From NCBI GenBank assembly GCA_902786275.1, contig CADACC010000006.1:1-52964 (forward strand): 52,964 nt of DNA, written 5' to 3'. Source of the stretch: an uncultured Erysipelotrichaceae bacterium. Its GTDB lineage: Bacteria > Bacillota_I > Bacilli_A > RF39 > UBA660. The notes below the pieces were generated by a model. The model ran no database searches. It was not told the origin of the DNA and saw only the letters and a program-made list of their open reading frames with translations. Shown piece by piece: positions 15,710 to 21,312 of the stretch (positions within the stretch are counted from its first letter, which is position 1; each line of letters begins with the position of its first letter). Position numbers and translations under genes: made by a program.

Positions 15710-17444
15710 TACTTTCCACTTCCTTCTTTAGTTTGGTTAACTCTTCAGTTAATTCTATTTTTTTATTTACATCTTTTTCGTTCTTTATTTTTGTTTTTAT
15801 TTCTTTAATTTCTTTATTAAGTAACATCTTTTTTTCTGCTTTTATGTATTCACTAAATAATTCATCATTTATATCTAAGTCACCATACTTAGACACAATA
15901 TCTATTATTATACTCTGCATCTCGACTTTATCCGATAAATACGTTATGAAATCAGCAATGTTTATGGTGTTATTTTGTTCATAGTAATACCTAATTTCAC
16001 TTACAATATTTCTTTGCCATTTTTCAGGTAAGAAACCAAGTTGTTTAATAAATAGTTTTATGTATTTGCCATTTGATATCATTCCAAGAATTATATTTGC
16101 AACCGCTTCATCAATTTTTAATGCTACAGTTTTTTCATCAGGGTTTTTTTCTATTTTTTGTTCTTTTTCTTCACCTGCAAAATTTGACGCTAAATTAGAA
16201 TAATCCAAATTATAATCTTTGGCAAGTTTTTTTAACGTTACTTCAATTAAAATCTTATCAGTTTCATTTTTTAAATCATTAATTACTAGTTTAATATATT
16301 TAGATAAATCTGTTACGTCATCTAAATTAAGATTTTCTTTAAAATATTCAAGCTTATAATTTAGAAAACTTAATGGGTTTTTAATTAAATTCTCAAATTT
16401 TTCTACACCATATTTATTCAAATACTCATCTGGGTCTTTTGCACCGCTAAGCAAGACTATTTCAGGAATTATACCACTTTTGACTAGAATATTACCATTT
16501 TGATACATACCTAGTTTTCCAGCAGAATCATTATCCATCATTAGAATAACTTTGCATCTTAGTTTTTTAATGGCATCAACTTGATCTGATGTAAGGGCTG
16601 TGCCCATCAGTGCAATAACATTTTTAAATCCAGATGCATACATTTTTAAGGCATCCATGTTTCCTTCTACTATTATTAATTCATGAGCATTTCGTACATG
16701 ATTCTTAGCTCGGTGAAAATTAAATAATATTTTACCTTTTTTGAAAATCTCAGATTCCTTTGAATTAATATATTTTGGATTATTACTATCTTTGTATATT
16801 CTTCCTGTAAAACCTAAAACATTTCCTTCCAGATCATGTATAGGAATCATGATTCTATCATTAAAAACATCATGTGTATACTTTTCAAGTGATATTAAAG
16901 ATGTTTTTTCTATATCTGCATCCTTATATTCTTTTTTGTTTAAAAATGAATATAACATATTATTTTTAGGAGATAACCCAAATTCAAATTCTTTAATGAT
17001 ATCGTTACTAAAATTACGAGATTTTAAATATTTTAAAGCTTCTTCGCCATCTTTTGTATTTAAATAATTTTGAAAATATTTAGAGGCATCTTTTAATATA
17101 TTATAATATACAACAAGGTTTTTATTTATATTATCTTTCTTTTCAGCTGTATACTCAAAGTTTATTCCTGCTTTTCTTGCAACAATAGCAACTGCTTCTA
17201 AAAAAGATACATTTTCATAGTTTTGAACAAAAGTAAAAACATTACCAGCAGCGCCACAAGAAAAACAGCGATATATTTGTTTATCACTTGATACACTCAT
17301 ACTTGGAGCATGGTCTTCGTGAAATGGACACACACCAAAAAAATTCTTACCTTTGCTAGTTAAAGGTACATAATCTTTAACAACATCTACAATATTTACA
17401 CTATTTCTTATTTCATTAATTTTGTTTTCATCTATATATGCCAT
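15696..17444 (-). CDS. dnaG: DNA primase DnaG
   Basis: Synthesises RNA primers at the replication fork. The 582-residue protein has the N-terminal CHC2 zinc motif ([11 protein letters not shown], then YRCFSCG), the primase core with [17 protein letters not shown], a TOPRIM Glu in IVEGNMDAL and DxD-like LMMDNDSAG. The C-terminal DnaB-binding part is Lys/Glu rich and strongly diverged. It is first gene of the dnaG-sigA-trmK unit. RBS GAGGT precedes the ATG. Confidence 0.97.
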
Positions 17445-17455
17445 CTAAAATACCT

Positions 17456-18022
17456 CTACAATAATATATATATCCGAAAGATACCTGATTTCCTTTTTTT
17501 TAATTGAAAAAATTGTGTTTTTTTATAAAAATCACGATTTTTTTCAATTTTTTCAAGTTTCCCCTGAAAAACTAGTTGTTTTTTTTTATTCTTTTTATCA
17601 CATGTTATTAGATATATTCCACTATCAATATCTTTATATTTAAAAGTACCATTCTTTTTTATTTTATATATACTATTAATCTTGTAATGGTATATTTCAT
17701 CATTACTTTGTAAAATAACCAACTCTCCAATTTTTAATTTATAAAGATTTTTAAAATAGCTAATACTACTATTACCAGAATGAGATGCTATTATAATTGA
17801 ACCTTTTTGTTTTTTTATATCATAATTATTTATAAGTTCTAAGCCATAATCAACACTATTATATTTTGAATCATAATCATATATATTTTCGTCTAATTGA
17901 ATAGTTGGTATAAGTAATCTTAATTTGTTATCACTATAATTAATATTATAATTATCAATCCTCGTTAGTGATAATAAAAAGACAAATAAAATATACAAAT
18001 AATTATTTAAAAAACTTAACAT
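17456..18022 (-). CDS. Sortase-like protein with an unusual active site
   Basis: Sortases are membrane cysteine transpeptidases that attach surface proteins to peptidoglycan. The 188-residue protein has an N-terminal membrane helix (residues 5-20), the His motif IASHSG followed by YFKNLYKLKIGE, and the Cys motif IYLITCD, matching a class D-like sortase. Where the catalytic Arg is expected, 6-8 residues after the Cys, it has KKKQLVFQG, with no Arg nearby; either a Lys or Gln substitutes or the enzyme is altered. It overlaps the upstream surface-protein gene by 20 bases, so that protein is its likely substrate. Confidence 0.82.
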   Translation of the reverse strand: MLSFLNNYLYILFVFLLSLTRIDNYNINYSDNKLRLLIPTIQLDENIYDYDSKYNSVDYGLELINNYDIKKQKGSIIIASHSGNSSISYFKNLYKLKIGELVILQSNDEIYHYKINSIYKIKKNGTFKYKDIDSGIYLITCDKKNKKKQLVFQGKLEKIEKNRDFYKKTQFFQLKKRKSGIFRIYILL

Positions 18023-19241
18023 ATATAAACCATAATAAAAGAGATGCTGGTATTCCTAGTAAATATATTAAGCTTCTGCTTTTATATGTATAGGGAATCT
18101 TTATAGTTTTCTCATCTAAATTTTCATTTAAATTAATTTCGTTTTTATCAGGAGTTGTTATAGGTTTTTTAATTTCCGTAGTTTTTTTAGGTTCTTCTTT
18201 TTTTAAAGAACATACATTAATAATAGTTAAGTCATTATTTTTCGAATTAAAATCATATATGTATTCATTCTGATTATATTTTTCAGGAAGTGATTTAACT
18301 CTTATTTTAAATGATCCAACTGGAATATAATCTGAAATACACTTTCTATCTTTATTACATGTAATTTCGCTTATTACCTCATCATCTTCATCTAAAACCT
18401 CGTATGTTCCACCTATAAATACACTTTCACTACTTTCTTCATCACATTCATTAATCATAACTTTACCTGCAGTTATTAATATACTAATAGATAGTTTATC
18501 TTTAAATATGTCTCCCCTTGTTAATATATTTTGCCCATTTTCATTATAGTGAAATTTAGGTTCTTTATAATATTTATAATCTAAATCAATTTCTGCTTCT
18601 TCACCTACATCAAGAGCGTTATTTAAATCTAATATATTTGAGTTTACTTCTCCAACAGAACTTTGATATCTATTTAGTAGCATATTTACATCAGTTATTT
18701 TTATATCATCATTATAATTAAATATATATTCATCACTTAAAGCTGGTCTATCTTTATGATTATTAACTAAATTATATATTTCATCAATTTCATATTTAAA
18801 CATGTTTTCTATTTTATTATGATGTTCATCAACAAAATACATTGTCCAGTTTGATGGCATTAATTCTTTCCATATAATGTACTGCGTTATAGCATACCAC
18901 TTAATGTCTGTGTGATTTCGATATTTATATCCATAATAAGCTATTTTTTTAATCTTTTCCCATTTATCTGCTTGAATATTAAATTTAGAATTATAATTTA
19001 CTTCATCAGTGTATTCTCCTTGCGATAAAGTTGCACCTGGTTCAATGCAATAAACTAGCTCGTTAGTTCCTTCTTTGTATATTTCGCGAAACTGTCTGTA
19101 GACTTTTTTATTTATTCTATCCATGTAAATATATATTCCTGGTACATGACCACCTAGATAAAACTTACTAGTTGCACTAGATTTATCTATAAAAGCAAAA
19201 AACATAAATAGTATTAAAGATAAATATATTGTTTTTTTCAT
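18003..19241 (-). CDS. Thioester-domain surface protein with C-terminal anchor
   Basis: Probable covalent-binding adhesin. It has a signal peptide (residues 1-25, MKKTIYLSLILFMFFAF) and an N-terminal thioester domain: Cys in LVYCIEPG and Gln in the ITQYIIWKEL motif would form the internal thioester seen in class I Gram-positive TED adhesins. A middle beta-rich region follows, a Cys-containing Cna-like or prealbumin-like domain (GTYEVLDEDDEVISEITC), then a Lys/Pro/Thr linker and IPYTY before a hydrophobic helix and KFFK. IPYTY may be a noncanonical sorting signal for the overlapping sortase. ATG 19241 is chosen; the RBS is weak, and a terminator hairpin lies just upstream. Confidence 0.8.
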   Translation of the reverse strand: MKKTIYLSLILFMFFAFIDKSSATSKFYLGGHVPGIYIYMDRINKKVYRQFREIYKEGTNELVYCIEPGATLSQGEYTDEVNYNSKFNIQADKWEKIKKIAYYGYKYRNHTDIKWYAITQYIIWKELMPSNWTMYFVDEHHNKIENMFKYEIDEIYNLVNNHKDRPALSDEYIFNYNDDIKITDVNMLLNRYQSSVGEVNSNILDLNNALDVGEEAEIDLDYKYYKEPKFHYNENGQNILTRGDIFKDKLSISILITAGKVMINECDEESSESVFIGGTYEVLDEDDEVISEITCNKDRKCISDYIPVGSFKIRVKSLPEKYNQNEYIYDFNSKNNDLTIINVCSLKKEEPKKTTEIKKPITTPDKNEINLNENLDEKTIKIPYTYKSRSLIYLLGIPASLLLWFIYVKFFK

Positions 19242-19250
19242 AATATTCGA

Positions 19251-19284
19251 CAAAAAATCTCACATATACTTTAATATGTGAGAT
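19251..19284 (-). terminator. Terminator after the RnfD-like gene
   Basis: Arms 19257-19267 and 19274-19284 (ATCTCACATAT/ATATGTGAGAT) with a U-tract on the minus strand. It lies only about 10 bases before the surface-protein ATG, so read-through or attenuation may control that gene. Confidence 0.75.
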
Positions 19285-19308: not shown

Positions 19309-20190
19309 TTATGTGTGTTTCAAGAATATCTTTTGTCGAATAATATTATAGATTCTATAGATAATACTTAAAGCAAACACAGTGATAATAGCTCCAGTAT
19401 ATACCTTGAAGATAAAGACCAAAATAAATGATATAAGACCTACTAAGATACTATAAATTGTGATTTCATTTGATATAGATGGGCTTGATTCATTTATCGG
19501 AGCTATAAAAATAAATGAAAAGAATGACGTACCATTTAAAAGTAATATCAAATTATTCAAATATGATTTTGTTATAAACATATAAATAAAAGAAAAAACT
19601 ATAAATGTTATTGATGAAATAATAAAAATATTCTTTTTATATGTTTTTATAAACGACAAAATTACATATGATATTAGTAACCAAAAGACACTTGATGTAT
19701 ATAAAAATGATGCTCCTCTTCCGAAAAATAAATCAAATAAAGTAAATTTGTACATATTAGTTATTTCCATAGGATTGAATATAATAGAATTATTAAATAT
19801 TTTATTTAAAATGATTAATATAGTGCATAAAAATGCTATGTTATTTATTTTTAAATGATTTGGAACTAAAGCAACTACAAACATCATACCTATACATATT
19901 GAAAAATATGCAATCATATTAAAATCGAATGGAGCTACTAAACCAGCTAAAACACCAAATTTTAAAAGTTCACTTTTTTTATTTTTAAATATAAGTCCTA
20001 TTAAATAACCTATTAAAATAGATATTAATGGATACATAGCTACTTTAAATACTTCAAATAGATTAATATACTTATTTGTATATAATAAATATCCATTTTT
20101 ATATATTCCATATATAAATAAAGGAGCTACTGCTAAATAGAAAAGATTTTCATTTCTTGTTTCTTTAGAAAATATATATGTTTGATTCAT
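19309..20190 (-). CDS. RnfD/NqrB-like membrane protein, diverged
   Basis: A 293-residue protein with about nine membrane segments. The C-terminal half resembles RnfD: NGTSFFSFIFIAPINESSPS corresponds to the LxGxxFFxxFFMATDxxTSP-type loop, followed by a helix with FKVYTGAIITVFALSI. The conserved SGAT-type flavin-attachment site is not visible; GRGASFLYTSS stands at a comparable place. In Rnf complexes RnfD carries covalent FMN within a sodium- or proton-pumping ferredoxin:NAD oxidoreductase. It follows the RnfC-like gene by 3 bases, but RnfA, B, E and G are not nearby. Assignment rests on the pair and on pattern similarity. Confidence 0.62.
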   Translation of the reverse strand: MNQTYIFSKETRNENLFYLAVAPLFIYGIYKNGYLLYTNKYINLFEVFKVAMYPLISILIGYLIGLIFKNKKSELLKFGVLAGLVAPFDFNMIAYFSICIGMMFVVALVPNHLKINNIAFLCTILIILNKIFNNSIIFNPMEITNMYKFTLFDLFFGRGASFLYTSSVFWLLISYVILSFIKTYKKNIFIISSITFIVFSFIYMFITKSYLNNLILLLNGTSFFSFIFIAPINESSPSISNEITIYSILVGLISFILVFIFKVYTGAIITVFALSIIYRIYNIIRQKIFLKHT

Positions 20191-20193
20191 AAA

Positions 20194-21312
20194 CTATCTA
20201 ATCCTTCCTATTTTAGATGGGCATATGTATGAACACATGTTACAGTCAATACATTTTCCAGGGAATGGTCTTCCTGATAATTTATATTTTTGAGGATTTA
20301 ATTTTTGGGGACAATATTTATTACATAGTCCACAGTTTATACATTCTCTTGGTTCTTCAAGATCCTTTTTTAATATTACTATTGAATTTATACTTGAATC
20401 TAAAACGTCGGTTGGTGTTATAATTTCTCCTTTTATTGCACTGTTTTTAAGGATTATATCTTCTGGTTTAAGTTTTATTTTACATTCTTGTAATAAATCA
20501 GATATTAAAACATTTAATTTAGTTGTAATTAAATAATCAGTTTTTAAACTATATGATGATATTAAAACTTCTTTTTCAATTATCTTTTTACCTCTTTTAA
20601 TTATTGTATACAAATAATATAAATCTGTAGGCGTTAGAACTAAAGCATTCTTTAGATTAAGTTTTCTTGTTATTAAAAGAGGATGTGAACACGGATATTT
20701 ATCGTGAGTTAAAGTAATATTAATATCAGGGTACATTCCAGATAAATTCGTTATATATTCAATATTTGCCTCATCAGTATCGCTTGCAATAATATATGGG
20801 TTTTTAATTTCAAATATTTGTGATAATGCATCAAACATTTCCATAATATCGCTATTATGAATATTAAATACAGATGAATATACTTTTTCAGCATCTTCGC
20901 AAACTACAAGTGATAAAACAAAATTATCAATTGAATCAAAATTATTTAAAAAATATTTAATATTATCTGAATATAGTTTTGAATTTGCATCATTAAGTAA
21001 GTCTAATACTTCTTTTTTAGATAGATTATTTATCTTCTTTCTTAATACTTTATTAGAATTAAATTTTTCTTTATAGTCATTTTGAATAACAAGATAATTA
21101 TTATTATCTAATTCTTTTGTGCCTAAAACTTTACCAGATACAGTTGAGTAAATATCATTTCCATTAATGTTGAATAAAACTTGTTCTTTTAATACTTTTG
21201 ATTTACCATCAATAAAGTATTTAACGGAATTATTAATTTTAAAATATAAGTATTCAGGTGAAAGATATTCTTTTTTTATAATTTTTTTAGGAATAAATTT
21301 GTCTTTTGCCAT
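20194..21312 (-). CDS. RnfC-like protein with two 4Fe-4S clusters
   Basis: The 372-residue protein follows RnfC: an N-terminal barrel-sandwich stretch (NGNDIYSTVSGKVLG), a middle region with KYPCSHPLLITRKL matching the KYPxGxExxLI element, and a C-terminal pair of complete cluster motifs CINCGLCNKYCP and CIDCNMCSYICP. The glycine-rich GLGGAGFPT loop that binds NADH/FMN in RnfC is missing; the corresponding place reads LNDANSKLYSDN. It is therefore probably an electron-transfer protein without the usual nucleotide site. No signal peptide. It is coupled to the RnfD-like gene and begins its own operon downstream of uvrC. RBS GAAGGTGA. Confidence 0.72.
   Translation of the reverse strand: MAKDKFIPKKIIKKEYLSPEYLYFKINNSVKYFIDGKSKVLKEQVLFNINGNDIYSTVSGKVLGTKELDNNNYLVIQNDYKEKFNSNKVLRKKINNLSKKEVLDLLNDANSKLYSDNIKYFLNNFDSIDNFVLSLVVCEDAEKVYSSVFNIHNSDIMEMFDALSQIFEIKNPYIIASDTDEANIEYITNLSGMYPDINITLTHDKYPCSHPLLITRKLNLKNALVLTPTDLYYLYTIIKRGKKIIEKEVLISSYSLKTDYLITTKLNVLISDLLQECKIKLKPEDIILKNSAIKGEIITPTDVLDSSINSIVILKKDLEEPRECINCGLCNKYCPQKLNPQKYKLSGRPFPGKCIDCNMCSYICPSKIGRIR

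Follow-up and report, generated by a model that had tools for sequence, protein, structure and literature searches.

A thioester-domain adhesin gene overlapping a sortase gene with glutamine at the catalytic-arginine site in an RF39 bacterium

In a 52,964-nucleotide stretch of DNA from an uncultured Erysipelotrichaceae bacterium of the order RF39 (hereafter the window), the gene for a surface adhesin overlaps a sortase gene whose product has glutamine, Gln149, at the position of the arginine of the Cys-His-Arg triad. This glutamine is shared by a clade of sortases from the same order, referred to here as Q-type, and nearly all surface proteins encoded beside them carry sorting signals other than LPxTG. 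We interpret the locus as a two-gene anchoring cassette that relies on a dedicated, catalytically active subclass of sortase whose substrate site has been rewired, a reading to which we assign a probability of about three in four.

The adhesin and its genomic setting

The adhesin gene (18003..19241) and the sortase gene (17456..18022) are both on the minus strand, with the adhesin upstream, and overlap by 20 bases (18003-18022); an earlier note on this DNA had described the two genes as overlapping. The adhesin likely starts at the ATG at 19241, the mechanical open-reading frame opening at a TTG at 19253, and comprises a signal peptide, a thioester domain, an Ig/CnaB-like part and a C-terminal sorting signal. 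The thioester domain (18831..19055, minus strand) matched Pfam TED, PF08341, with 34.3 bits against a cut-off of 22 (E=3.4e-8), and the closest solved structure by sequence was SaTIE-TED (6fx6, E=8e-4), with an additional weak match to pilin T6. Codons were located for both residues that had been proposed to form a thioester, the Cys of VYCIEPG (19047..19049) and the Gln of ITQYIIW (18882..18884), both on the minus strand; among 72 distinct partner proteins of Q-type sortases, the predicted thioester Cys column contains 58 Cys and 12 gaps, and the predicted Gln is present in 65. The codons of the sorting motif (P4-P1', 18084..18098, minus strand), together with the motif survey described below, bear out the earlier reading of IPYTY in place of LPxTG. 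This motif is followed by KSRS, a hydrophobic helix and KFFK (hydrophobic segment, 18018..18071, minus strand), which fits the xPxTx motif, helix and positive tail of a sortase substrate.

The adhesin has a thioester domain, stalk domains and a C-terminal membrane segment in common with the TIE proteins SfbI, SaTIE, BaTIE and TIEpLS20. The TIE proteins reported to be sortase-anchored are not known to be encoded beside a dedicated Q-type sortase gene that overlaps their own. TIEpLS20, unlike the window adhesin, is without a sorting signal (PMC8092201).

The pair is flanked by dnaG/rpoD-like genes at 17444 and lower coordinates (names taken from the translated sequences) and by Rnf-like genes at 19309 and higher coordinates. 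The Rnf-like genes include RnfC- and RnfD-like frames (20194-21312 and 19309-20190, minus strand) that matched curated models below cut-off only and that we describe as a divergent or reduced Rnf complex. The source genome (68 contigs totalling 1.1 Mb, with a completeness of 90%) encodes one TED protein, that of the window, and four sortase matches, and two of the other sortases retain Arg (GKKRVVLHA and RETRLVVHA). The LPXTG-anchor model found no protein above its cut-off in the source genome, and its weak sub-threshold matches were open-reading frames without a sorting signal.

Residues at the sortase active site

The sortase has 188 residues, with an N-terminal hydrophobic segment preceding the sortase domain, and passed both Pfam PF04203 (E=1.3e-14, 54.4 bits, cut-off 26.6) and the generic model TIGR01076 (45.8 bits, cut-off 39.35). 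The curated class C, D, E and GN models gave weak matches, none of which passed, leaving the generic sortase model only. The class D placement suggested in the earlier note was rejected, as the two NCBIfam class D models scored far below their cut-offs, at 20.1 bits (cut-off 165) and 20.4 bits (cut-off 140); the best curated subfamily match was to class C, which also failed (35.3 bits, cut-off 160). Class A is characterized by LPxTG partners, and this tail was found in 1 of the 72 Q-type partners, the window adhesin ending in IPYTY.

An AlphaFold2 model built from a 54-sequence alignment (pLDDT 85.3) matched many sortases with Z scores of 14-17, the SrtC1 and SrtA chains at about 17 (2.5-3.0 A over 128-136 residues) and class A SrtA chains at about 16-17. 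In this model, strand beta 7 (135-141) ends at Cys141 and strand beta 8 (148-161) contains Gln149 at its start. The codons of the catalytic His81 (ASHSG, 17780..17782) and Cys141 (LITCD, with the TC motif, 17600..17602) were read directly on the minus strand, and both residues are intact as claimed. Past Cys141, the sequence continues as DKKNKKKQLVFQGKL, in which Gln149 (17576..17578, minus strand) is reached after eight residues, like R216 past C208 in S. pyogenes SrtA. In a profile alignment to solved sortases, Gln149 is opposite the Arg of B. anthracis SrtA (2kw8, SKRYVVAGDL). By alignment, then, the residue at the catalytic-Arg site is Gln149, and the proposal that Arg had been lost at KKKQLVFQG is upheld by this structure and by the Arg-type sequences described below. 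No substitute Arg is conserved elsewhere in the Q-type alignment, in which the sole near-invariant basic residue is Lys123, located in a different loop.

Relatives of the window sortase were taken from its own order. Gln149 was present in 25 of 26 sequences in the first relative set and was invariant, as were His81, Thr140 and Cys141, in the 54-sequence alignment (A4). All rows of a 98-sequence alignment contained the catalytic His and Cys (43/43 Q-type and 51/51 Arg-type), while the Arg site was occupied by Gln in 42 of the 43 clade members and by Arg in all 51 Arg-type rows; Thr140, which precedes Cys141, was kept in every Q-type row. The Q-type sequences formed one clade with the Arg-site column removed (bootstrap 100, SH-aLRT 98), and 20 additional loci fetched afterwards as a test all carried Gln (20/20), showing that the altered site noted in one sequence is conserved clade-wide. 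We give next to no weight to the explanation that Gln149 is an artefact of sequencing or assembly, or a chance event confined to a single genome. It is ruled out, since the same residue is found in four species of the genus as well as in the 20 further loci. A single member of the clade departs from Gln (KKNYLIIS; L034:1345-1884, plus strand) and is also the exception in the set of 26; its partner has a degenerate-looking tail, VPNAS, and this pair may be decaying because the tail is without a clear positive end. A separate 984-residue frame (L150:914-3868, minus strand) contains a Q-type sortase domain (DDAQIVHIGYL) and may be a surface protein-sortase fusion.

For scanning genomes, a narrower five-sequence alignment served as the query, the 26- and 9-sequence alignments being too diverse. 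Applying a stringent threshold of E<=1e-28 to 385 genomes sampled across the order, we found Q-type copies in 273, from 79 of 117 genera, and many carriers had 2 to 5 copies each. One match was Candidatus Onthousia, a genus placed in RF39. Among 392 genomes drawn from the phylum, scores reached 241 bits within the order and did not exceed 89 bits outside it; the sortases from outside the order that were fetched and readable all had Arg. RF39 reportedly retains the majority of peptidoglycan genes, and the related orders RFN20 and ML615J-28 are reported to be without srtA/B (PMC10868615).

Two further positions distinguish the clade. Position 123 (17654..17656, minus strand) is Lys in 41 of 43 Q-type sequences, compared with Pro in 23 of 51 and otherwise mixed residues in the Arg-type, and position 125 (17648..17650, minus strand) is Gly in 41 of 43 Q-type sequences and Asp or Glu in 43 of 51 Arg-type sequences. 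Both fall in the segment that aligns with the SrtA beta6-beta7 loop, where 2kw8 has P and D; this loop has been reported to affect P4 specificity (PMC13104033). An alternative explanation is that Lys123 rather than Gln149 replaces Arg, conserving the charge at another place; Lys is not a common Arg-type residue at position 123, and it is retained in 91 of the 115 sequences of a wider set. We hold this explanation to be less likely than not, as 19 of the 115 have Asn and Gln149 is the more constant residue. Compared with the class A sortases (SrtA of S. aureus, S. pyogenes and B. anthracis), the Q-type enzymes have the same fold, TC motif, His and Cys, and differ in having Gln for Arg, in the Lys and Gly of the beta6-beta7 loop, in partners ending in V/I/A-PxTx rather than LPxTG and in usually having one partner per enzyme.

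Several genomes of the order encode, within pilus-type operons, a class-B-like sortase that carries Lys at the Arg site (LSTCYNNSEKLVLHAKL; L141:3158-3943 (plus strand), L155:2573-3364, L160:5194-5991, L161:5355-6131, L162:5029-5835 and L164:5142-5921). In L141, L160, L161, L162 and L164, a small neighbouring protein ends in PPNTI, VPNTL, VPYTF or PPSTY. In these sortases, Arg may have been lost a second time, independently of the Q-type clade.

Partner proteins and their sorting signals

A signal-bearing neighbour was found close upstream in 85 loci and overlapped the sortase frame in 80 of them, a figure that is somewhat inflated because longest open-reading frames were used and that includes a few Arg-type pairs. 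The overlap, and its recurrence in many genera, agree with the dedicated pair that had been proposed from the window. TED was detected in 51 and SpaA-type Ig domains in 41 of the 72 partners, many of which are cut off at the edge of the fetched sequence. Where a genome has several Q-type copies, each usually has one substrate of its own.

The partner signals are broadly V/I/A-P-(D/N)-T-x. Among the 72, P4 is Val in 49, Ala in 7, Ile in 6 and Leu in 2. At P2, 35 have Asp and 15 have Asn, and P1' is Gly in 29 only. The co-occurrence with IPxTx-ending proteins that the earlier note had asked about therefore recurs in relatives in the wider form V/I/A-PxTx, and a normal LPxTG tail occurs in 1 of the 72. 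LPxTG accounts for 22 of the 23 curated signals next to Arg-type sortases of the same order, and for 22 of 31 once all signal-bearing neighbours are included. Leu at P4 was present in 2/72 Q-type partners compared with 22/23 curated Arg-type signals (p=3e-18, shared ancestry ignored); the curated LPxTG-type neighbours used in this initial comparison were a selective set, and the result was kept in the recount with all neighbouring signals (2/72 and 23/31, p=4e-14, shared ancestry again ignored). Of the 20 out-of-sample loci, 15 had recognisable partners, all with Val or Ala at P4 (Leu 0/15). Taken with the loop residues, these data indicate that a Pro-x-acidic loop and Arg became a Lys-x-Gly loop and Gln as Leu at P4 gave way mostly to Val. 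Since the motif and Gln both track one clade, they stand in essence for a single evolutionary change, and their association is no proof of causation.

One Arg-type sortase (TCENNIKKRLIVVAEL; L173:4516-5124, minus strand), scoring between the Q- and Arg-types, overlaps the gene for a 1270-residue protein ending in MPDTY (L173:5105-8917, minus strand). It may belong to a sister lineage in which the motif change preceded the loss of Arg, as the pairing of an Arg-type enzyme with MPDTY would suggest.

Signals of the VPDTG type are already known from the pneumococcal RrgC (PMC5640630), and the class C pilus sortases with RrgC are likewise associated with VPDTG-like signals, although these enzymes retain Arg and act within pilus operons. 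A sortase that polymerises the adhesin into fibres, or only releases it, with no wall attachment, would be compatible with the SpaA-type domains of the partners and with class C as the best curated subfamily match, far under cut-off as that match is. We consider this unlikely given that most Q-type sortases have a single substrate and each cassette a single surface protein.

Predicted function and significance

In the anchoring cassette that we favour, the adhesin would be exported and held by its C-terminal helix and positive tail, and the co-expressed sortase would cut past Thr (IPYT|Y), forming a thioacyl enzyme on Cys141, and then transfer the adhesin to an amine of a peptidoglycan precursor. 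The thioester domain at the free end of the adhesin could then bond covalently to a surface. With five PBP transpeptidase matches and one FemAB match above cut-off, the source organism has a wall and a possible cross-bridge nucleophile.

Activity in an enzyme of this kind is predicted from sequence and from work on other sortases. The Arg of S. pyogenes SrtA makes hydrogen bonds to the P4/P3 carbonyls and lies out of reach of the P1 oxyanion. The oxyanion hole is served by the Thr that precedes Cys, and R216A abolishes activity (PMC9520033). Efficient transpeptidation on LMVGG is reported for an engineered SrtA that carries Ser at the Arg site (PMC9520033, PMC13104033). This SrtA-beta (Ser at R197, LMVGG-specific) resembles the Q-type in being Arg-free with a changed specificity, in its case as an active enzyme, and differs in being a laboratory product with Ser instead of Gln and another motif (PMC9520033, PMC13104033). 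Because the Arg of known sortases chiefly contacts the backbone carbonyls of P4/P3, Gln149 probably offers a neutral hydrogen bond, with Lys123 of the remodelled loop perhaps assisting, and this site would recognise V/I/A-P-x-T-x rather than LPxTG. The contacts of Arg, the activity of the Ser variant and the retention of Thr140 in the Q-type are together the grounds on which we propose an active enzyme. Counting against this proposal is the loss of activity in R216A (PMC9520033): losing Arg is normally fatal, and the window sortase could be a pseudosortase without catalytic activity, binding the adhesin tail in the role of a chaperone or a retention factor. This is improbable in light of the invariance of His, Cys and the preceding Thr over 54 sequences, the several copies per genome, mostly each with its own substrate, and the adjoining sorting signals, which remain intact.

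The broader proposal of a natural Cys-His-Gln class, active in hundreds of species of one uncultured order and able to dispense with Arg because its binding was rebuilt around Gln149 and Lys123 for V/I/A-PxTx signals, we judge to have a slightly better than even chance. Within the open-licence literature, to which the search was confined, we found no report of a natural sortase in which Gln replaces Arg. The sortase Arg has been treated as a triad member, and recent structures suggest that it serves in substrate positioning only (PMC9520033, PMC13104033); a large natural Gln clade with a matching change in its tags makes this question directly testable. Q-type enzymes would also widen the range of sortases usable for protein ligation, because P1' is often not Gly, and would help explain the display of covalently anchored adhesins by a little-known gut order. 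If the Cys-His-Gln class is real, Arg would be a specificity residue and not an essential member of the catalytic triad.
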